Shown piece after piece: positions 4,887 through 41,589 of a stretch of DNA of 64,000 nucleotides; the first letter of the stretch is position 1, and each line of letters starts with the position of its first letter. The stretch spans positions 1,147,354 through 1,211,353 of the forward strand of contig NZ_DS989904.1 of the NCBI RefSeq assembly GCF_000155595.1, in the 5' to 3' direction. This stretch comes from Synechococcus sp. PCC 7335. GTDB lineage: Bacteria; Cyanobacteriota; Cyanobacteriia; Phormidesmidales; Phormidesmidaceae. The notes beneath the pieces were generated by a model that ran no database searches, had not been told where the DNA came from, and was given only the letters and a program-made list of their open reading frames with translations. Both the position numbers and the translations under genes were made by a program.

Positions 4887-7800
4887 ATGTCTGCTCGCCC
4901 GCCTGCTCTGTTATCTTCTGGTGATACGACTAGCTCGGTGGTACCGCCAGAAGTCACGCTGACAATTTGCGATCGCGAGCCCATCCGTATACCAGGCCAG
5001 ATTCAGCCTTATGGACTGCTACTAGTACTTGCCGACAAGACCCTAGAGATCTTGCAGGTAAGTAAAAACGTCAGGTCTTTTCTAGGTCTAGAACCGGCCG
5101 AATTGCTAGGTCAGCCGCTAAGTCGGATAGCAGAAGAACAGCAGTGCCAGTCTATTCGACAGACAATCCAAGCGCTACAGACGTCTAATCAGCCTTCTGG
5201 ACGAAGCGCACCTATCTCTTTAGACTCAGTGATTTTGTCTGGTACTGCTAGGCAAACTGATGTGGTAGAAGCACCGGTATCTTCATGGCGCGGACTTTTG
5301 CACGTCAGTGCAGATAGCATCATTCTAGAGCTTGTTCCCGATGCCACAGCAGCTTCTGCTAAGCAGCCTGAAAACATATTCACTAAGCTGCATCAGAAAG
5401 TTAGCCAGTTTCAACTAGCAGACGGTTTGACAGCGCTCACCAATCAGATTGTACAGGCGGTAGCAGAACTAACCGGATTTGATCGGGTTATGGTGTATCA
5501 GTTTGCCACCGATTACAGCGGGACGGTGATAGCGGAGGTAATGGCACCGTCGCTAGAAGCATCAAGCTTCTTTGGTTTAAGATATCCCGCGACTGATATT
5601 CCAGCCCAAGCTCGCGATCTTTATCTCAAAAACTGGTCGCGGACCATTCCAGATGTTGGGTACGAGCCAGTTGGGATCGTTCCAGATTTGCATCCGCTGA
5701 CGCACAGTCCGCTCGATCTAGGCGCAGCGGAGCTAAGAAGCGTATCGCCAATGCACCTAGAGTACCTACAGAACATGGGCGTGCGGGCGTCGATGTCAAT
5801 TTCGCTAATTGTAGAGAATCGTCTGTGGGGCCTGATCGCTTGCCATCACTCTCAGCCTAGATCGGTGAGCTTGGATATCCGAAATGCCTGTGAGTTTCTC
5901 GGACAGATAGCTTCTCTAGAGCTGTTTCGTCAACAGATACGGACAGAAAAGCGCTACCTAGCAGAGGTTCGTAGCATTCAGCAGCAAATTCGGCAGACGT
6001 TGATGCGATCGCATCCTACTTATGCCATTGATTCTGTACTAAAGCAGCATCAGCAGGCACTGTTAGCGCTAGTTCATGCTACCGGTGCGGCTATCGTCTT
6101 CGACGAGCATCTGACGTTGATAGGCGATACACCTGCTGCCGAGAGCGTCCATGCGCTAGCAACGTGGCTAGTGCAGAAGCGACAGGACGTTTACTGTACC
6201 CACTCGCTTGTACAAGAATTTACGCTACCTGAGTCTGAACAGAACCGTGCCTGTGGACTACTGAGCATATCCATCTTCCTATCCCAGTCCTCTTACCACG
6301 TGCTGTGGTTTAGGCCCGAACTAGTTCAATTGGTCGAGTGGGCTGGCAACCCCTCAAAGTCAACAACTGTCGGTGAAGACGGCAGCTTGTATCTGTCTCC
6401 GCGTCAGTCATTTGAGCGTTGGAAAGAATCAATACACAATCAATCCCTCCCTTGGCAAAGTAACGAAGTCGTCGCAGCGCACGAATTGCATTCGACGTTG
6501 CTATTAGCAGCGTTAGAATTTTCTCAAGCTTCGCTAAAACGAGTTGCCAGTGAAGCGAATACTGCCAACCGGGCAAAGAGCCAGTTCTTGGCAAAAATGA
6601 GCCATGAGCTGCGAACGCCACTCAACGCGATTTTAGGCTTTACTCAACTGCTCCACTATCATGAGACACTCTCTTTTGAGCAGCGAGATCGGTTGAATAT
6701 TATCAATCGTAGCGGAGAGCATTTGCTATCGCTGATCAACGACGTTTTAGAAACTTCTCGAATTGAAGCTGGGCAGCTCAGACTAAACGAGAGCTGTTTT
6801 GATCTGCATCAATTTATTGAGTCAATACGAGAGATGTTGACGCTGCGCGCCAGCAACAAGAATCTGTTGTTGAAGGTCAATCAAACTCCTCGGGTTCCTC
6901 AATACGTATGGGGCGACGAGATCAAGCTTAGGCAAGTAATTATCAATCTCGTGGGAAATGCCATCAAATTCACTAACAATGGAGAAGTTAGGATAAGGGT
7001 TTCCTGCTTGTCAGGAATGGGTAAGGCGCCTATTGCAAAGTTAACAGAAGAGCAGGAAGAAGTCCTCACTGAAGAAGTCCTAACTAATGAGATAGAAGGC
7101 GTAAGCATCACTGAAAAAGTATCTAATACTGCTTGCATTCAATTTGAAGTAAGCGATACTGGCTGCGGCATCAAATCTGAGAACTTTGACGCTATCTTCG
7201 AGCCCTTCAAGCAGACTAAAGCAGGCCGTCGGGCATACGAAGGGACGGGACTAGGGCTTTCGATTAGTCGTCAGAACGCCCGGCTAATGGGAGGAGATAT
7301 TGAGGTGCACTCACAGTTGGGCGAGGGTTCAACGTTTGTTTGTCACGTCCAGCTAGGCCTGAGGACAGCAAATGACCTTACCGCACCAAAACAGCCACTA
7401 CGGCGAGTTGTCGCGCTTGCCGCAGGTCAAAGAGACTATCGGATTCTAGTTGTTGAGGATGTAGCTGAGAATCGCCAGCTGCTGATATCTCTACTGACAA
7501 CTATATGCTTTGAGGTCTGCACTGCTAACGATGGAAAAGAGGCTGTAGACCTCTGGCGGCAATGGCATCCCGACTGCATTTTGATGGATTTATACATGCC
7601 AAGGATGGATGGATACGCAGCAACTCAGCAAATCCGCGCTGAGCAAGCAGCGATCGAATTGACTTTTCCGCCAGCTATCATCGCGCTGAGCGCTTCTGTA
7701 ATTGATCACTTTCGCAGCGACTTAGTCAGTTTCGGGTTTGATGACTATGTCTCTAAACCCTTTCAAATCAACGTCATTCTCGAGAAAATAGCTGAACATA

Positions 7801-8099
7801 CAGGGGCTCTCTACGAATACGCAGACGACAATAGTAGCGACATCGATACCGATACATCGCCTAAGATGGTATTGCCGATAGAACCAGAGCAGATAGCAGC
7901 ATTGCGATCGCAGCTTCTAGCCCAACCCGAAGCCTGGCAGGTTGATTTCCACCATGCGGTTCTAGGCGCTAGAGAGCACAAGATCGAACAGCTCATTGAG
8001 CAGTTGTCAGCGAAGAATGTTGCTGATTCGCTACGAACCTGTCTAGGACAGCTTCGGTTTGACTTACTTCAGCAACTGATCGAACCGTTATCTGGCTAA
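4887..8099 (+). CDS. bphP: Biliverdin-type phytochrome hybrid histidine kinase
   Basis: Red/far-red photoreceptor kinase of 1070 residues with the order PAS-GAF-PHY-HisKA-HATPase-REC. The N-terminal PAS carries Cys28 in ICDREPIRIPGQIQPYG, the biliverdin attachment cysteine of bacteriophytochromes. The GAF domain has the chromophore-contact Asp237 in YPATDIPA and RSVSPMHLEYLQNMGV, so the GAF cysteine used by Cph1-type phytochromes is absent. The PHY tongue shows WFRPE and SPRQSFERW. The kinase part has phospho-His573 (SHELRTPLNA), NLVGNAIKFT, DTGCGI and GTGLGLSIS; the receiver has Asp901 in LMDLYMPRMDG and Lys in VSKPF. AGGA seven bases upstream supports the ATG at 4887. The gene is 72 bases ahead of the next REC-kinase, so the two are probably co-transcribed. 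Identity is firm; far-red tuning through biliverdin is inferred from cysteine placement. Confidence 0.96.
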   Translation: MSARPPALLSSGDTTSSVVPPEVTLTICDREPIRIPGQIQPYGLLLVLADKTLEILQVSKNVRSFLGLEPAELLGQPLSRIAEEQQCQSIRQTIQALQTSNQPSGRSAPISLDSVILSGTARQTDVVEAPVSSWRGLLHVSADSIILELVPDATAASAKQPENIFTKLHQKVSQFQLADGLTALTNQIVQAVAELTGFDRVMVYQFATDYSGTVIAEVMAPSLEASSFFGLRYPATDIPAQARDLYLKNWSRTIPDVGYEPVGIVPDLHPLTHSPLDLGAAELRSVSPMHLEYLQNMGVRASMSISLIVENRLWGLIACHHSQPRSVSLDIRNACEFLGQIASLELFRQQIRTEKRYLAEVRSIQQQIRQTLMRSHPTYAIDSVLKQHQQALLALVHATGAAIVFDEHLTLIGDTPAAESVHALATWLVQKRQDVYCTHSLVQEFTLPESEQNRACGLLSISIFLSQSSYHVLWFRPELVQLVEWAGNPSKSTTVGEDGSLYLSPRQSFERWKESIHNQSLPWQSNEVVAAHELHSTLLLAALEFSQASLKRVASEANTANRAKSQFLAKMSHELRTPLNAILGFTQLLHYHETLSFEQRDRLNIINRSGEHLLSLINDVLETSRIEAGQLRLNESCFDLHQFIESIREMLTLRASNKNLLLKVNQTPRVPQYVWGDEIKLRQVIINLVGNAIKFTNNGEVRIRVSCLSGMGKAPIAKLTEEQEEVLTEEVLTNEIEGVSITEKVSNTACIQFEVSDTGCGIKSENFDAIFEPFKQTKAGRRAYEGTGLGLSISRQNARLMGGDIEVHSQLGEGSTFVCHVQLGLRTANDLTAPKQPLRRVVALAAGQRDYRILVVEDVAENRQLLISLLTTICFEVCTANDGKEAVDLWRQWHPDCILMDLYMPRMDGYAATQQIRAEQAAIELTFPPAIIALSASVIDHFRSDLVSFGFDDYVSKPFQINVILEKIAEHTGALYEYADDNSSDIDTDTSPKMVLPIEPEQIAALRSQLLAQPEAWQVDFHHAVLGAREHKIEQLIEQLSAKNVADSLRTCLGQLRFDLLQQLIEPLSG

Positions 8100-8171: not shown

Positions 8172-9317
8172 ATGACTTCGGCCCATGATTTGCGAACGAC
8201 TGGCGATATCTTAATTGTTGACGATCAGCCCGAGAATTTACAGCTGCTACTTGATACCTTAAGTCGCCAAAGCTATGAGTTACGCCGCGTACTCAGTGGA
8301 CAGCTAGCCATTCAGGTAGCACAGTTCGATCCGCCCGACCTAATCTTGCTAGATATTCGTATGCCAGACATGGATGGATACGAAGTTTGTCGCCAGCTCA
8401 AAACTAATAAACGAACACGAGATATCCCCGTCATTTTTCTAAGTGCCTTAGATGATCCAGTTGATAAGGTAAAAGCATTTGATGTCGGCGGCGCTGACTA
8501 TGTATCAAAGCCTTTTCAGGTTCCTGAGGTGCTGGCTCGGGTGCGCCATCAGCTACAGATTAGACAGCTTCAGAGGCAGGCCGAAGAGCAGCAGCAGCAG
8601 CTTCAAAGAAGGGCCCAGGCGTTAGAGATGGCAAATCAAGAACTAGAGTTCTTCTCCTCATCCGCTTCCCATGATCTCACCGCGCCTTTGCGGGGACTGC
8701 AAAGCCTATCAGAAGTTCTGATAGAGGACTATGGCGATCGCCTTGATGAGTTAGGTCAAACGTATCTACATCGGATCCGTTCAACCGCTATAGAGATGGA
8801 CTTACTACTGAAGACGCTATTGGACTACAGCCGGATGAGTCGCACCGAATTCTCAGTCGGCCCGGTTTCACTACAAGCGGTTGTTGCCAATACGCTACAA
8901 ACTCTGCGCTCTACGATTGAGAGCAGTGGGGCTGATATTGAAGTTCAGCCAGATTTACCTAGTGTTGTTGGATTCTCTTTAATTCTAGAAAGGGTCGCTA
9001 GTAATTTGTTGACCAATGCGCTGAAATACGTCGAACCCGGTAGCTTTCCGAGAGTTTATATTGGCGCTGAGAGAAAACAACAAACCGTTCGCTGGTTTTT
9101 TCAAGATAGCGGCATTGGTATTAGTGAAGACGATCAAGCCCGAATCTTTAAGCCGTTCGAGCGTTTGCACGGTAGTGAGTCATATCCAGGCACAGGCTTT
9201 GGACTAGCCATCGTGCAGCGTGGCATCACTCAACTAGGTGGCTACTGTGGCGTTGAGTCCGAGCTAGGCAAAGGAAGTCGGTTTTGGATCGAACTGCGCA
9301 CTAGTGATTTGGGATAG
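8172..9317 (+). CDS. REC-HisKA-HATPase kinase following the phytochrome
   Basis: A 381-residue soluble kinase. The receiver domain (about 13-130) has Asp61 in ILLDIRMPDMDGYE and Lys in YVSKPF. A glutamine-rich coiled coil (about 133-160) leads to a HisKA region with His167 in ASHDLTAPLRG; the usual Arg after Leu in SHDLRAPLR is Thr here. The ATPase domain has NLLTNALKY, QDSGIGI and GTGFGLAIV. There is no PAS or GAF sensor, so the receiver is the only input. It follows the phytochrome gene after 72 bases and precedes the multi-GAF kinase by 150 bases. A reasonable inference is that it takes phosphate from the phytochrome's or the GAF kinase's histidine and relays it, but no experiment supports this. 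Confidence 0.92.
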   Translation: MTSAHDLRTTGDILIVDDQPENLQLLLDTLSRQSYELRRVLSGQLAIQVAQFDPPDLILLDIRMPDMDGYEVCRQLKTNKRTRDIPVIFLSALDDPVDKVKAFDVGGADYVSKPFQVPEVLARVRHQLQIRQLQRQAEEQQQQLQRRAQALEMANQELEFFSSSASHDLTAPLRGLQSLSEVLIEDYGDRLDELGQTYLHRIRSTAIEMDLLLKTLLDYSRMSRTEFSVGPVSLQAVVANTLQTLRSTIESSGADIEVQPDLPSVVGFSLILERVASNLLTNALKYVEPGSFPRVYIGAERKQQTVRWFFQDSGIGISEDDQARIFKPFERLHGSESYPGTGFGLAIVQRGITQLGGYCGVESELGKGSRFWIELRTSDLG

Positions 9318-9467: not shown

Positions 9468-12400
9468 ATGTTGATTACAGAAGAAAGATCGAAACTTACT
9501 GTTGCTCTCTCTATGTATGCATCCTCTACTGCTTCAACTGTCTCAACCGATGATTGCCAACAGGCGCTAGCTCGCAATCTAGAATATCAGAAGGTCCTTG
9601 GACGCATTCTTCATAAAGTTCGCAACTCTGTTTCGCTTGATGCTATTTGCATGACTACAAGCCAAGAGATTGTACGGCTACTCAACGTAGAACGAATAGC
9701 GTTTTATCAATTTGATGCAGACTGGAGTGGACAGTTCATCGATGAATATGGCTATGCCGGCTCGCCTTGGAATCAAATCGAAGCATTTGGTCAGCATCAG
9801 GTATGGAAAGATACGCACCTACAAGAAACTCAAGGAGGCCGATACAAAACGCACGATCCGTTTGCGGTGCCTGATATCTATGAAGCAGGCCATGCACGAT
9901 GCCACATAGAGATGCTCGAACAGTACCAGATTCGCGCCTATGCGATCGCACCGATCTTTGCAGGCAATAAACTGTGGGGGCTACTCGCGGCTTATCAGCA
10001 CTCAGCTCCTCGCGACTGGAGCAACTACGAAATCGATTTTCTTGCCCAAGCCGCAGACTACTTAGGAATTGCGTTCCAGCACTCTCTAGAGCTACAGTCC
10101 TCAGCGGCGAGGCAGCGCTCTTTGAGTGAGGTTGTCGGTAAGATTCGCTCTTCGCTCAGCGTTTCGGCCATCCTAGAAACAGCCTGTGAAGAACTCTGCA
10201 ATCTTTTGTTTGTAGAAAGAGCCGCTGTATATCAGTTTGACAAGGACTGGAGCGGTAATTTTGTTTGTGAGCACAGCCCTTATTCTCAGCTAGACGGTGT
10301 CAATCCTTTTGGGAAGAATCAGGTCTGGGAAGATACCCACTTGAAGGAAACCAAAGGGGGCCGCTATCGCAATAATGAAAGTTTTACAGTCGCAGATATC
10401 TATCAGGCCGATCATGCTCGCTGCCATCTAGATGTATTAGAGCAGTTCAAGATCCGCGCCTATGCACTCGCGCCCATTTTTGTAGGAGATCGTCTCTGGG
10501 GTTTGTTCGGAGCCTACCAGCATACGACTACACACGATTGGCAGGGCTACGAAATTGACTTTTTGACTCAGCTAGCTGCTCAAATTGGGGTGGCTATTCA
10601 GCAAGCTGAACTGCTTGGCTATTCAAAGACACAGGCGATCGCCCTTGAAAAGTCAGTATCTCGTCAAAAAGCGCTCACCGAAGTCGTCAGCAAAGTGCGA
10701 TCAGCACTAGATATTGATCTTATTCTCATAACAACCTGCAAAGAGGCTGTCAACTTACTAGAAGTGGATCGCGTCGCCGTCTATCGCTTCAATGAAGACT
10801 GGAGTGGACAATTTGTCAGTAGTTTCTACCGGCAAGATCCTGATGCAGAAGTCAGCATTCCCTTCGGACAGACACCTGTTTGGGAAGATACTCACCTACA
10901 AGAAACGCAAGGAGGCCGCTATCGCAACAACGAGACGCTCGCCATCAACGATATCTACAAAGCAGACTATGCTCGCTGCCATATCGATCTACTAGAGCAG
11001 TACAAAGTAAGAGCCTACGCGCTAGTGCCTATCTTTGTGGGACAAACGCTTTGGGGCTTACTTGCGGCCTATCAGCACCTAGCACCTTATGAGTGGCAGA
11101 AAGTCGAAGTTGATTTTCTTTCTCAAGTTGCCAATCAACTTGGCGTGGCTATCCAAAGCGCTAAAACCTTGAAGGATAGTCAGATCCGCGCAGAAGATTT
11201 GCAACAAGCGGCTGAACAACGCGAAATCTTGTTCGATGTCGTAGCCAAGATTCGAGAGTCTTTAGATCTAGAGACTATCTTCAATACTACCGCTCAAGAA
11301 GTTCGGCGATCGCTTAGGGCAGACCGCGTAGGTATCTTCAAGTTTGAAGATGACTCTAACTATTGCAGGGGCCAGTTTGTTGCAGAAGATGTCTTGTACA
11401 AGTTTGGTTCAGCCATGAACTTGATGCTAGAAGATCATTGCTTTGGTGACAGCTATGCTACCCAATATTCCAAAGGTAGAATGCAAATCATTGCTGATGT
11501 CTTGACGGCCAACTTTCAAGCTTGTCATGTCAATTTTCTAGAACGGCTGCAAATCAAGGCCCAAATCGTTGTGCCTCTAATGAAAGGAACAGAGCTATGG
11601 GGGTTGCTCTGTATTCATCAGTGCGAACATACTCGTCACTGGGCAGATAGCGCTGTTGAATTTGTCAAACAAGTCGCCGTCCAGCTTAGCGTAGCGCTGC
11701 TTCAAGCTAGCCTACACGCACAGACTCAAAAGCAAGCCGAACAGCTAGCAGAAAGCGTAAAAGAACTACAGAGCGCTCAACTGAAAGTCATTCAGTCAGA
11801 GAAGATGGCTAGTTTGGGTCAGTTAGTAGCAGGCGTTGCTCATGAAATTAACAACCCTATCAGCTTTATCTATGGCAATCTAACGCACGCAGAAGACTAT
11901 GTTACTGACCTCCTTCAGATAATAGACTGCTACCAAAGCGCTTATCCAACGCCTGAGAGCAGCGTCACAGCCTGCCTAAGCAGCATAGACGCGGACTTCA
12001 TTAGAAATGATTTGCCGAAGCTCTTTCAGTCTATGCAGGTCGGTACTCAGCGTATCCGTGAGATTGTCAGCTCATTGCGTAACTTTTCGCGGTTGGACGA
12101 ATCTGCACCCAAAACTGTCGATATTCATGAAGGAATTGACAGCACGCTGATGATCCTGCAGAACCGCCTAAAGCCCTCACCTAGCCAGCCAGGTATCCAC
12201 ATCATCAAGAACTACGACTCGCTACCTAAAGTAGAGTGCTTCCCAGGTCAGCTCAACCAAGTCTTCATGAATCTATTAGCGAATGCTATCGACGCTTTAG
12301 AAGAACGCAACCAAGATCGCTCAGAAGACTCTCTTGAGGAAGATCCTAGTCGGATCGAAATTACAACATCCGTGCATCAGCCTGATAGCGTAGCGATTCG

Positions 12401-12626
12401 TATAGCCGACAATGGTAGCGGCATGCCTCAAGAGATGCTTGATAGCGTGTTTGATCCATTTTTCACGACTAAGCCAGTGGGCAAAGGTACCGGATTAGGT
12501 TTATCAATTAGCTACCAGATTGTCACTGAAAAGCATAATGGCAAACTGTACTGCCATTCGTCGCAGGCGCAAGGAACAGAGTTCGTTATAGAAATTCCAA
12601 TTGAGCAGAAAGAGATGGCTCATTAG
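9468..12626 (+). CDS. Four-GAF cyanobacteriochrome histidine kinase
   Basis: A 1052-residue cytoplasmic photoreceptor kinase with four successive GAF domains (about 50-210, 225-385, 410-570, 595-755). GAF1-3 each have the residues known to hold phycocyanobilin in red/green cyanobacteriochromes: Trp-x-Asp, GGRY, Cys-His and a later Tyr. The cysteines are Cys145, Cys319 and Cys504, each 30 residues after the Asp, the same spacing as in AnPixJ GAF2. GAF4 differs: it has DHCF with Cys658 and a canonical Cys686, 28 residues apart, which is the DXCF dual-cysteine layout. After a coiled coil comes an NtrB-like kinase with His792 in GVAHEINNP, then NLLANAIDAL, DNGSGM and GTGLGLSIS. It has no receiver domain. 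The start is the ATG at 9468. Chromophore binding and colours are predictions from family knowledge. Confidence 0.95.
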   Translation: MLITEERSKLTVALSMYASSTASTVSTDDCQQALARNLEYQKVLGRILHKVRNSVSLDAICMTTSQEIVRLLNVERIAFYQFDADWSGQFIDEYGYAGSPWNQIEAFGQHQVWKDTHLQETQGGRYKTHDPFAVPDIYEAGHARCHIEMLEQYQIRAYAIAPIFAGNKLWGLLAAYQHSAPRDWSNYEIDFLAQAADYLGIAFQHSLELQSSAARQRSLSEVVGKIRSSLSVSAILETACEELCNLLFVERAAVYQFDKDWSGNFVCEHSPYSQLDGVNPFGKNQVWEDTHLKETKGGRYRNNESFTVADIYQADHARCHLDVLEQFKIRAYALAPIFVGDRLWGLFGAYQHTTTHDWQGYEIDFLTQLAAQIGVAIQQAELLGYSKTQAIALEKSVSRQKALTEVVSKVRSALDIDLILITTCKEAVNLLEVDRVAVYRFNEDWSGQFVSSFYRQDPDAEVSIPFGQTPVWEDTHLQETQGGRYRNNETLAINDIYKADYARCHIDLLEQYKVRAYALVPIFVGQTLWGLLAAYQHLAPYEWQKVEVDFLSQVANQLGVAIQSAKTLKDSQIRAEDLQQAAEQREILFDVVAKIRESLDLETIFNTTAQEVRRSLRADRVGIFKFEDDSNYCRGQFVAEDVLYKFGSAMNLMLEDHCFGDSYATQYSKGRMQIIADVLTANFQACHVNFLERLQIKAQIVVPLMKGTELWGLLCIHQCEHTRHWADSAVEFVKQVAVQLSVALLQASLHAQTQKQAEQLAESVKELQSAQLKVIQSEKMASLGQLVAGVAHEINNPISFIYGNLTHAEDYVTDLLQIIDCYQSAYPTPESSVTACLSSIDADFIRNDLPKLFQSMQVGTQRIREIVSSLRNFSRLDESAPKTVDIHEGIDSTLMILQNRLKPSPSQPGIHIIKNYDSLPKVECFPGQLNQVFMNLLANAIDALEERNQDRSEDSLEEDPSRIEITTSVHQPDSVAIRIADNGSGMPQEMLDSVFDPFFTTKPVGKGTGLGLSISYQIVTEKHNGKLYCHSSQAQGTEFVIEIPIEQKEMAH

Positions 12627-40540: not shown

Positions 40541-41589
40541 TCATCTGTTTTCTACCTTTTCTCTAACTTCATGCTCTGATGATGAAGTAGATTTTTTCGA
40601 TGCACCTGCAACAACTGGAATCTGAACAATAAACTCACTACCTTGACTGACAATAGATCGACAAGATAGGTCGTCATGGTGCTTTTGGGAAATAATACTA
40701 TAGCTAATAGAAAGCCCCATTCCTGTTCCTTTCCCTATTGGTTTAGTCATGTAGAAAGTGTCAAAGATACGAGTTCGAACCTCGACTGGGATACCGAGGC
40801 CGTTGTCGATGATAGTAATCTCTACCTAGTCACATCTTTCTCTAGTAAAGCTAGAGGTGCGCAGCGAAATATGTCCCTGATAATTGTTCTGATGTCTTTC
40901 TGCTGCTTCCTTGCCTGCATCAACAGCGTTAGCCAAAAGATTCATAAACCGCCTGTTTTAGCAAGCCCGGGTAGCACTCTACAGAAGGCAGCGTTCCATA
41001 GTTCTTTCCTACAGTAATCGCTGGGCGTTCCGTTCCTTTTGCTAATCGATGCTTCAAGATCAGTAAAGTATCCTCTAACGCTTCGTGAATATTCACTGAC
41101 TTAGATCCTTGTTCATCAGATCGAGAAAAGTTCCTCAATGAAAGAACAATCTCTTTAATACGTTCAGAGCCCACCTGTGTGGATCTCAAAATCTTCGGTA
41201 AGCCCTCTTTATCAAAATTGATATCAGCTTCTGCAAGTCTGTTCAGTTAGCTCTTTTGACCACTGCTGTATTCCATTCCCGTACACTTCTTTTTATAGCT
41301 GGTAGGTCTTGCCAAACAAGAAGTCTATTGCCCGATCAGACTGATTGTCACGAATAAGTTTGAACGCATCGTTCTTCATATCAAAGAGTTTCAAGTTAGC
41401 GTCATTGATTTGGGCAGCATGGCGAGCGTAGGTATTTGGTGCTAGTTCAATGGCGTGGTTGATTGAATCTGTTAGAAGAGGTTCGTAGGTGTCGTAACGA
41501 TTTATTGAGTGCTGTAGAGACTCTGGAGTTGACAGTCTGAAGTTGCTATATAGATCTATATATGAGAGCTGCTCTTGAAGCTTTGACAT
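40541..41589 (-). pseudogene. Decayed sensor histidine kinase
   Basis: Reading from 41589 leftwards, 98 codons encode a helical sensor-like segment (SINHAIELAPNTYARHAAQ, LFDMKNDAFKLIRDNQSD). A TAA at 41293-41295 interrupts it, yet the same frame continues with kinase-linker-like sequence (KEVYGNGIQQWSKELTEQ). A frame jump and deletion near 41225-41245 then removes the H box. The text resumes with ILRSTQVGSERIKEIV and LSLRNFSRSDE, close to the four-GAF kinase (QRIREIVSSLRNFSRLDE). A frameshift near 40946-40950 splits the N box (FMNLLANAVDA), a TAG sits at 40826-40828, and the end encodes GKGTGMGLSIS. With at least four lesions and no phospho-His it cannot make an active kinase. Confidence 0.88.

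Follow-up and report, generated by a model that had tools for sequence, protein, structure and literature searches.

Red/green and DXCF GAF domains within one protein are an already known and common combination among cyanobacteriochromes. NpR1597 from Nostoc punctiforme has a teal-DXCF GAF (g1) and an insert-Cys GAF (g2) (PMC5240096), and a red/orange cycle and a half-life for g4 are reported (PMC6121604); it resembles the kinase described below in the presence of a DXCF and a red/green-lineage GAF in one protein, but differs from it in the order of the GAFs and in having an insert-Cys GAF. SPI1085 from Spirulina subsalsa (WP_017306776) is a four-GAF histidine kinase of 1046 aa, with a 642/535 nm red/green g2 (PMC9705869), a 642/590 nm g3 with a dark reversion of 3.3 min, and a response-regulator domain also listed (PMC6121604). 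It is similar to our kinase in length, in the number of GAFs and in the kinase output (PMC9705869), and its red/green-lineage domains g2 (216–369) and g3 (397–551) are located at approximately the same residues as GAF2 and GAF3 in the present protein. None of 388 class genomes contains a 22-base part of a published SPI1085g2 primer, so the source genome is probably outside our sample.

For the individual domains, AnPixJ g2 and NpR6012 g4 exhibit the same red/green (XRG) signature as GAF1–3 of our protein, but the parent proteins have, by their molecule names, a chemotaxis-type output and not a kinase. TePixJ (3vv4, 4fof), also with a chemotaxis-type molecule name, shares with GAF4 the DXCF motif, a canonical Cys 28 residues further on, the Arg of QGR, a Leu at the helix-Phe position and the His of HQC (in 3vv4 also the Cys of HQC), but has Ile at the position of C715 and lacks a three-residue insertion ahead of the conserved Gly. 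PPHK, a "dual sensor histidine kinase" (6oap), is the top PDB match to the GAF4 sequence, but has DQYF, and hence no second Cys, and a Val in place of C715.

The window, i.e. the whole 64,000-nt stretch analyzed here, comes from the forward strand of Synechococcus sp. PCC 7335 (GCF_000155595.1, NZ_DS989904.1, positions 1,147,354–1,211,353). The preliminary description had interpreted the ORF 9468–12626 as a kinase with three red/green-type GAFs and one DXCF-type GAF, and the ORF, Pfam, motif and tree analyses agree with this assignment (Table 1). The resemblance is not due to chance, as Pfam assigns GAF to four stretches (protein-level E 5.1e-89) and also detects HisKA and HATPase_c. As judged from Pfam and the ortholog alignment, the histidine kinase part is intact: it possesses H792, which we take to be the phosphoacceptor, and N939, D981, G983, G985 and T1008–G1011, presumably the N, G1 and G2 boxes. 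All motifs listed in that description were found, namely Trp-x-Asp (113–115, 287–289, 472–474), GGRY (123, 297, 482) and Cys-His (Cys145, Cys319, Cys504) in GAF1–3, and DHCF (656–659) with C686-H687 in GAF4; Asp and Cys lie 30 residues from each other in every one of the four GAFs, and Cys658 and Cys686 are 28 residues apart, as in the TePixJ PDB chain. A structure model of mediocre quality (pLDDT 73.6, pTM 0.31) predicts long helices between the GAFs; the fold search with the whole model retrieved, with low TM-scores, chiefly phytochromes and histidine kinases, including PPHK (rank 16, 35% identity, 198 columns).

Table 1. Features of the four-GAF kinase locus (nucleotide positions in the window; residue numbers of the protein).
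Feature	Position	Strand	Evidence
Four-GAF cyanobacteriochrome histidine kinase, 1052 aa, ATG start	9468..12626	+	ORF, Pfam, orthologs
GAF1, XRG type, aa 40–213: W113, D115, GGRY123, C145; helix-Phe position Y153	9585..10106	+	
GAF2, XRG type, aa 216–388: W287, D289, GGRY297, C319; helix Phe F327	10113..10631	+	
GAF3, XRG type, aa 400–577: W472, D474, GGRY482, C504; helix-Phe position Y512	10665..11198	+	
GAF4, DXCF type, aa 578–755	11199..11732	+	
C633 codon (GAF4); Cys in 68/78 orthologs, 0/7 outgroup kinases	11364..11366	+	
C658 codon, second (DXCF) Cys of GAF4; Cys in 58/78 orthologs	11439..11441	+	
C686 codon, canonical Cys of GAF4; orthologs: Cys 17, Pro 60, Ala 1 (n = 78)	11523..11525	+	
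C715 codon (GLLC-I-HQC), aligned with AnPixJg2 A350; Cys in 77/78 orthologs	11610..11612	+	
DHp and ATPase domains, aa 774–1047	11787..12608	+	Pfam, ortholog conservation

Each of GAF1–3 contains the WxDxxL motif and the canonical Cys that define the XRG class, and in the GAF tree they fall within a 39-row, mostly XRG clade that includes NpR6012g4 (support 100). With the whole protein as the query, the top-ranking PDB chains are AnPixJg2 (3w2z, 1e-50) and NpR6012g4 (6bhn, 5.9e-49), with Slr1393g3 fourth (5dfx, 3.3e-43). The Trp, Asp and Cys, as well as the GGRY Arg and the D-ring Tyr, are invariant in each of the three domains (78/78 orthologs). "Near-duplicate", the term used earlier for these domains, is loose wording: they are alike (53–57% pairwise identity, vs 30–32% to GAF4), yet not near-identical, and in the GAF tree their divergence looks older than the ortholog split. 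The helix-Phe position is Tyr, Phe and Tyr in GAF1, GAF2 and GAF3 of the window protein (Phe in 76, 78 and 76 of the 78 orthologs), and the Glu of W(S/G)GE is replaced by Gln, Asn and Gln, respectively (orthologs: Ser in 65 for GAF1, Glu in 75 for GAF2 and in 73 for GAF3, n = 78). Since these residues differ, photoproduct colour and dark reversion may vary among GAF1–3; "three identical readers" were ruled out at the same two positions. Hence, the earlier prediction of three red/green readers and one blue/green or blue/teal reader stands with respect to the classes (motifs and tree), but not with respect to three equal XRG readers.

GAF4 groups apart from the XRG domains, in a 36-row, mostly DXCF clade (support 96), with an unresolved fork between it and TePixJ; a second DXCF-like group (11 rows, support 93) is placed elsewhere. 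PDB searches with GAF4 alone identified PPHK (1e-34), 8k9o (2.5e-31) and, third, the XRG chain 6bhn (2e-29), with TePixJ just tenth (3vv4, 3.5e-24), so overall GAF4 is not especially near TePixJ. The window GAF4 retains C658, C686, R671, D656, H717 and F659 together. Between the two colour pairs proposed earlier, blue/green is favoured for this domain because of the Leu at its helix-Phe position, as in TePixJ. Position 694, the helix-Phe site, is Leu in 5, Phe in 6 and Tyr in 1 of the 12 orthologs with both cysteines, and the colour may therefore vary within this group.

A pattern scan of genome contigs, with C715 included in the pattern and the best 80 of 565 relatives kept, revealed how common such pairings are. 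Among these best 80 of 565 relatives, at least 39 frames combine DXCF with red/green-lineage GAFs, and at least 24 consist of exactly an XRG followed by a DXCF GAF (all dual-Cys by the class definition); two-GAF frames with an XRG first and any other second GAF were not found in this set. Three XRG domains followed by a fourth GAF occur in at least 37 frames of the same 80, at least 7 of them dual-Cys. Four two-GAF XRG-DXCF kinases contribute the XRG domains that, among those from outside the family of the window kinase, lie closest to it in the GAF tree.

The ortholog family proper shares the arrangement XRG-XRG-XRG-GAF4-HK along the full length and is separated by score (at least 1186 bits, vs at most 820 for other loci). 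Its 113 loci were merged into 78 distinct sequences, including the window protein; 76 of them were retrieved by a genome search with residues 1–755, and two (L045, L046) came from the pattern scan. A 693-aa broken ortholog (L205, 801 bits) and four loci below the score gap (L139–L142) were left out, and L132–L135, gapped at position 658, were scored as lacking C658. In GAF4 of the 78 sequences, C686 is found in 17 (Pro in 60) and C658 in 58; 12 sequences, among them the window protein, have both and 15 have neither, i.e. all four combinations occur. Omission of L045 and L046 (n = 76) gives 15 for C686, 56 for C658, 10 for both and 15 for neither; omission of the dual-Cys rows L131 and L136 (n = 76) gives 15 for C686, 56 for C658 and 10 for both. 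In the GAF tree, GAF1 and GAF3 of the sampled orthologs cluster in the expected way. The GAF4 domains of L131 and L136, however, join another kinase (L096_g1), apart from the other ortholog GAF4s, which reflects either an exchange of GAF4 in these two or insufficient power of the tree. Both this tree and the ortholog tree, calculated without GAF4, are quick trees with long branches (0.91 for the window protein in the latter). The minority status of dual-Cys GAF4 in its own family (12/78) was hidden from the preliminary description, which had the sequence alone to go by.

All seven outgroup kinases possess C658, C686 and C715. On the ortholog tree, the fewest changes are 8 for C658, 1 for C686, 1 for C715 and 7 for C633. 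Because C686 changed once, the 61 rows without it are not independent, and its link with a basic residue at position 671 (R or K in 17/17 rows with C686, 5/61 without) amounts to one historical coincidence. In the rows without C686, the mean pairwise identity of GAF4 (0.827) is near that of GAF1–3 (0.845, 0.869, 0.910) and the kinase (0.808), which indicates that the domain has been retained. DXCIP GAFs are reported to attach their bilin via the Cys corresponding to C658 alone. Since 46 of the 61 rows without C686 keep C658, a bilin held by C658 alone is possible, and a "relay only" description may be wrong for these 46. No spectrum was found for any identifiable family member.

Three further cysteines of GAF4 are better conserved than the canonical one: C719 (78/78), C715 (77/78) and C633 (68/78). 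C719 was dropped as a special cysteine, as it is general in the aligned DXCF-like GAFs, including wild-type TePixJ (3vv4). C715 aligns with the residue that faces ring D (A350 in AnPixJg2); because the pattern of the contig scan contained C715, its count is given also for the 76 rows retrieved with residues 1–755 (75/76), and an explanation of its conservation as a retrieval artefact was dropped. Among the literature matches listed, none was related by title to a third cysteine.

The genome encodes two PcyA, one PebA and one PebB; with two PcyA, phycocyanobilin can probably be made by the host. The analysis of genomic neighborhood (proteins of 90 aa or more, with 40% identity and 60% coverage as lower limits; flanks no longer than 5 kb, often ended by contig ends) revealed no conserved partner genes linking the other genes of the window to 38 ortholog loci: besides the kinase, one neighbour family is common to 4 of the 38 loci and no other occurs in 4 or more. 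The surroundings of one ortholog (L038) showed no match to the first 30 kb of the window besides the kinase at 1e-10.

On balance, we favour, with moderate confidence, an interpretation in which three conserved red/green GAFs act through a kinase-proximal GAF4 of optional photochemistry, which in the window protein is probably a blue/green dual-Cys sensor. The sensor histidine kinase is probably a soluble dimer, with the three strictly conserved red/green GAFs as its core input; long helices would join these to GAF4 beside the kinase, whose activity the GAFs would affect. GAF4 would derive from a photosensor of the dual-Cys DXCF type. That of the window protein most likely binds PCB, converts part or all of it to PVB and alternates between a blue dark state with a C658 adduct and a green photoproduct; this photosensor reading is based on the retention of both bilin cysteines, of the TePixJ-type Leu and of a basic residue at the propionate position. 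Most of the orthologs examined have a GAF4 without one or both cysteines, which would mainly pass on the signals of the three red sensors. Alternatively, the four GAFs of the window protein could be equal photosensors, with the kinase comparing red/green with blue/green light and the XRG copies setting gain or threshold, much as the preliminary description had suggested. The ligating cysteines kept in 4/4 GAFs and the XRG-DXCF pairing in the two-GAF frames described above, four of which carry the nearest outside kin, agree with this; but as only 12/78 orthologs keep both GAF4 cysteines, comparing colours is not what the family has conserved as its function, and the tuning positions of GAF1 and GAF3 in the window protein deviate, so we regard such a scheme as unlikely.

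Less probable still is that the window GAF4, too, relays signals without any photochemistry and that its cysteines are leftovers. The tree, on which C658 changed at least eight times and C686 once in a domain otherwise near-normally conserved, would fit such a history, but drift would tend to break the set of six residues that the window GAF4 keeps jointly, and its long end branch offered time enough for that. We give little credence to a related scenario, in which GAF4 is repeatedly and independently converting from a dual-Cys photosensor to a conserved non-canonical signal gate that retains another cysteine of the chromophore pocket, C715; colour would be read by the three upstream GAFs alone, and GAF4 would set the response via a thiol-based or bilin-free signal; the window protein would then be a rarer member with both chemistries, and could switch. 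Finally, GAF4 could have become a sensor of thiols, metals or redox state that relies on C715, C719 and C633, with an optional bilin. Each of these cysteines is kept better than C658 or C686, but C719 is, as noted above, present in TePixJ and most of the other aligned DXCF-like GAFs, C715 is common to dual-Cys kinases outside the family, where it may merely tune colour, and C633 changed seven times on the tree; we consider this the most doubtful of the explanations. 

The interpretation we favour, of conserved red/green input through an optional fourth sensor, draws on a contrast at the level of sequence: among the relatives examined, the fourth GAF has repeatedly lost its pigment-holding cysteines and the other three have kept theirs. 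In the studies of multi-GAF cyanobacteriochromes consulted here, GAFs are expressed singly. The family is a natural experiment on which GAFs of a tandem array matter to the output, with many species, one architecture, three inputs lost in 0/78 and one input with every combination of its two bilin cysteines, and it points to orthologs in which one may ask whether the kinase-proximal GAF must be photoactive to relay light.

The four-GAF kinase comprises 1052 aa, in which Pfam recognizes four GAF stretches, HisKA and HATPase_c. All motifs and distances ascribed by the preliminary description to three red/green-type GAFs and a fourth of the DXCF type, with the second Cys C658 and the canonical Cys C686, were found in its sequence. 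The kinase motifs, with the N, G1 and G2 boxes, are unbroken. GAF1–3 exhibit 53–57% pairwise identity to each other and 30–32% to GAF4. Sequence searches of the PDB revealed AnPixJg2 and NpR6012g4 as the leading matches to the whole protein (Slr1393g3 was fourth), while GAF4 alone matched PPHK and 8k9o best, followed by 6bhn, a domain of the red/green lineage (XRG), in third place and TePixJ in tenth.

Searches with residues 1–755 returned matches at E ≤1e-150 in 19 of 388 genomes of the class; 14 of them, including that of the window, reach E ≤7.4e-279 across most of the query, the next best value being 1.8e-169. Searches of whole families at E ≤1e-200 gave matches in 3/63 genomes of the same family (own genome counted) and in 65/217, 6/42 and 1/36 genomes of others. 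Translated ortholog loci reach 1186 bits or more, compared with a maximum of 820 for other loci. The 78 distinct orthologs analyzed comprise 76 from the genome searches, including the window protein, and two (L045 and L046) from a pattern scan. The ortholog frame at locus L205 has only 693 aa, with the match ending inside GAF4, and is either a broken copy or an assembly error.

Among the 78 orthologs, the Trp, the Asp and the canonical Cys are retained in 78/78 sequences in each of GAF1, GAF2 and GAF3. In GAF4, position 686 is Cys in 17, Pro in 60 and Ala in 1, and C658 is present in 58, so that 12 sequences have both cysteines, 46 only C658, 5 only C686 and 15 neither; C715 (77/78), C719 (78/78), C633 (68/78) and H717 (78/78) are mostly or fully conserved. 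Exclusion of L045 and L046 (n=76) leaves C686 in 15, C658 in 56, both in 10, neither in 15, C715 in 75, C719 in 76 and C633 in 66. The sole sequence without C715 (L176) lacks also C658 and C686. Each of two genomes (G556, with L198 and L202, and G563, with L201 and L204) encodes a pair of orthologs, of which one retains C658 and C686 in GAF4 and the other lacks both. Near-invariant cysteines other than the bilin ligands occur also in helices of GAF1–3, at aa 61, 240, 244 and 424 of the window protein (77, 78, 77 and 77 of 78, respectively).

A quick ortholog tree was calculated with the GAF4 columns left out and seven outgroup kinases added. C658, C686 and C715 are all present in 7/7 outgroup kinases, which suggests that the changes at these cysteines are losses. 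The fewest changes required are 1 for C686, 8 for C658, 1 for C715 and 7 for C633, counts that carry no direction of change and come from a tree with long branches (0.91 for the window protein).

Position 671, which corresponds to the Arg of QGR in TePixJ, is R/K in 17/17 sequences with C686 vs 5/61 without it (Fisher 4.2e-13, for sequences that share one history). Where C686 is missing, the conservation of GAF4 is close to that of GAF1 (0.827 vs 0.845). C715 corresponds in the alignment to AnPixJg2 A350 and MCC3606390g2 I1076, a residue on the β face of ring D with a supporting role in PCB-to-PVB isomerisation (PMC11284453); TePixJ has Ile and PPHK Val at this position, in contrast to the Cys of the window GAF4. 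Isomerisation in AM1_6305g1 is independent of its second Cys (PMC11284453), hence loss of C658 alone need not abolish bilin chemistry. DXCIP GAFs lack the canonical Cys and hold PCB through the second one (review PMC5578081); the orthologs that carry Pro together with C658 share the missing canonical Cys with them, but their motif is DXCF, not DXCIP.

A quick tree calculated from 97 GAF domains (24/94 inner branches starred) places GAF1–3 of the window protein within a 39-row clade with NpR6012g4 (support 100) and GAF4 within a 36-row, mostly DXCF clade (support 96). The position of TePixJ is an unresolved fork, and 11 other DXCF-like rows form a group elsewhere (support 93); thus DXCF is not a single clade in this tree, in agreement with the derivation of XRG from DXCF lineages (PMC11284453). 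The GAF1 domains of the sampled orthologs form one clade (support 96), their GAF3 domains and the window GAF3 another (support 92), and six GAF2 domains cluster (support 83), with the window GAF2 adjoining at an open fork. The XRG triplication, by these separate groupings, is probably older than the orthologs. The closest XRG domains outside the family come from four two-GAF XRG-DXCF kinases (fork support 94), from which we infer that the four-GAF kinase was derived from such a pair via expansion of the XRG unit. Two orthologs speak against a simple history of the array, L131 and L136, whose GAF4 clusters with the first GAF of another kinase (L096_g1), outside the 10-row clade of the window GAF4 and the other ortholog GAF4s (support 95); a swap by domain exchange is possible.

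The helix-Phe position (canonical Cys + 8) was matched through the 6bhn alignment to F695 of NpR6012g4. The window GAF1–4 exhibit Tyr, Phe, Tyr and Leu there, and the orthologs Phe in 76, 78, 76 and 72 of 78. At the W(S/G)GE Glu position, the window GAF1–3 have Gln, Asn and Gln, and the orthologs mostly Ser (65/78), Glu (75/78) and Glu (73/78). Absence of the helix Phe has been linked with a red-shifted photoproduct in SPI1085g3 (PMC6121604) and the Glu with thermal reversion (PMC12856669); on this basis, the best candidate for a canonical red/green GAF is GAF2, and a different photoproduct colour or reversion is possible for GAF1 and GAF3. GAF4 had been predicted to be blue/green or blue/teal; the Leu at its helix-Phe position, common to TePixJ, favours blue/green. 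Among the 12 dual-Cys ortholog GAF4s this residue is Leu in 5, Phe in 6 and Tyr in 1.

The pairing of DXCF and red/green-lineage GAFs in one protein is not new. NpR1597 combines a teal-DXCF GAF (NpR1597g1) and an insert-Cys GAF (NpR1597g2; PMC5240096). Among GAFs of the red/green lineage, a red/orange cycle is listed for NpR1597 and a half-life for NpR1597g4 (PMC6121604); in this pairing it is like the window protein. A scan of genome contigs with the GAF4 alignment and the patterns GLLC[IV]HQC and D[HKS]CF[GA]... identified at least one XRG and at least one dual-Cys DXCF GAF in a single frame in 39 of 80 loci (the best 80 of at least 565 relatives). A description of the four-GAF family was not found among the open-licence PMC papers searched. 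The genus and family of the window also have a different protein, with five GAF-like domains (L014, L016, L018, L022 and L026), in which the last GAF carries DHCF and, at the C715 position, Ala.

In two full-length orthologs with three intact XRG GAFs (L137 and L138), the N-box Asn and the G1 Asp are gone and G2 is partly lost or broken; these two are likely pseudokinases. L045 and L046 lack the N-box Asn and part of G2. A search around the ortholog loci gave no conserved neighbour that would point to the regulator. Just upstream of the kinase gene, on the same strand, lie a hybrid kinase and a receiver-kinase (see the table). The former has a Cys in the N-terminal TICDREP stretch and SPMHL in the GAF domain, where cyanobacterial phytochromes typically carry CHL, which suggests biliverdin as its chromophore. 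The latter is a possible partner of the four-GAF kinase; it was not found beside the orthologs among neighbour families of at least 4 loci. The genome encodes two PcyA-family proteins (L208 and L209) and one PebA and one PebB, whose genes are adjacent.

Coordinates of the kinase gene and related features in the window
Feature	Position	Strand	Remarks
Bacteriophytochrome-type hybrid kinase	4887-8099	+	PAS_2-GAF-PHY-HisKA-HATPase-receiver (domain search)
Receiver-histidine kinase	8172-9317	+	between bacteriophytochrome and four-GAF kinase
Four-GAF kinase	9468-12626	+	
Probable kinase pseudogene	about 40613-41285	-	kinase part of the four-GAF protein matched twice, with overlap and internal stops

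In the AlphaFold2 model built from the 78 sequences (pLDDT 73.6, pTM 0.31), successive GAFs are joined by helices of 43, 53 and 53 residues, and long helices run into the DHp domain. These fit a rod-like dimer, in which every GAF would act upon a common helical spine. GAF4 would be obliged to relay whatever GAF1–3 report, and its own colour input would be the variable part of the family. The preliminary description is right in its literal finding, which belongs to a known kind. It is less expected that the members of a single array differ so much: the ligands of three photosensors are fully conserved, and in the fourth the bilin cysteines vary repeatedly while the GAF fold and C715 are retained.
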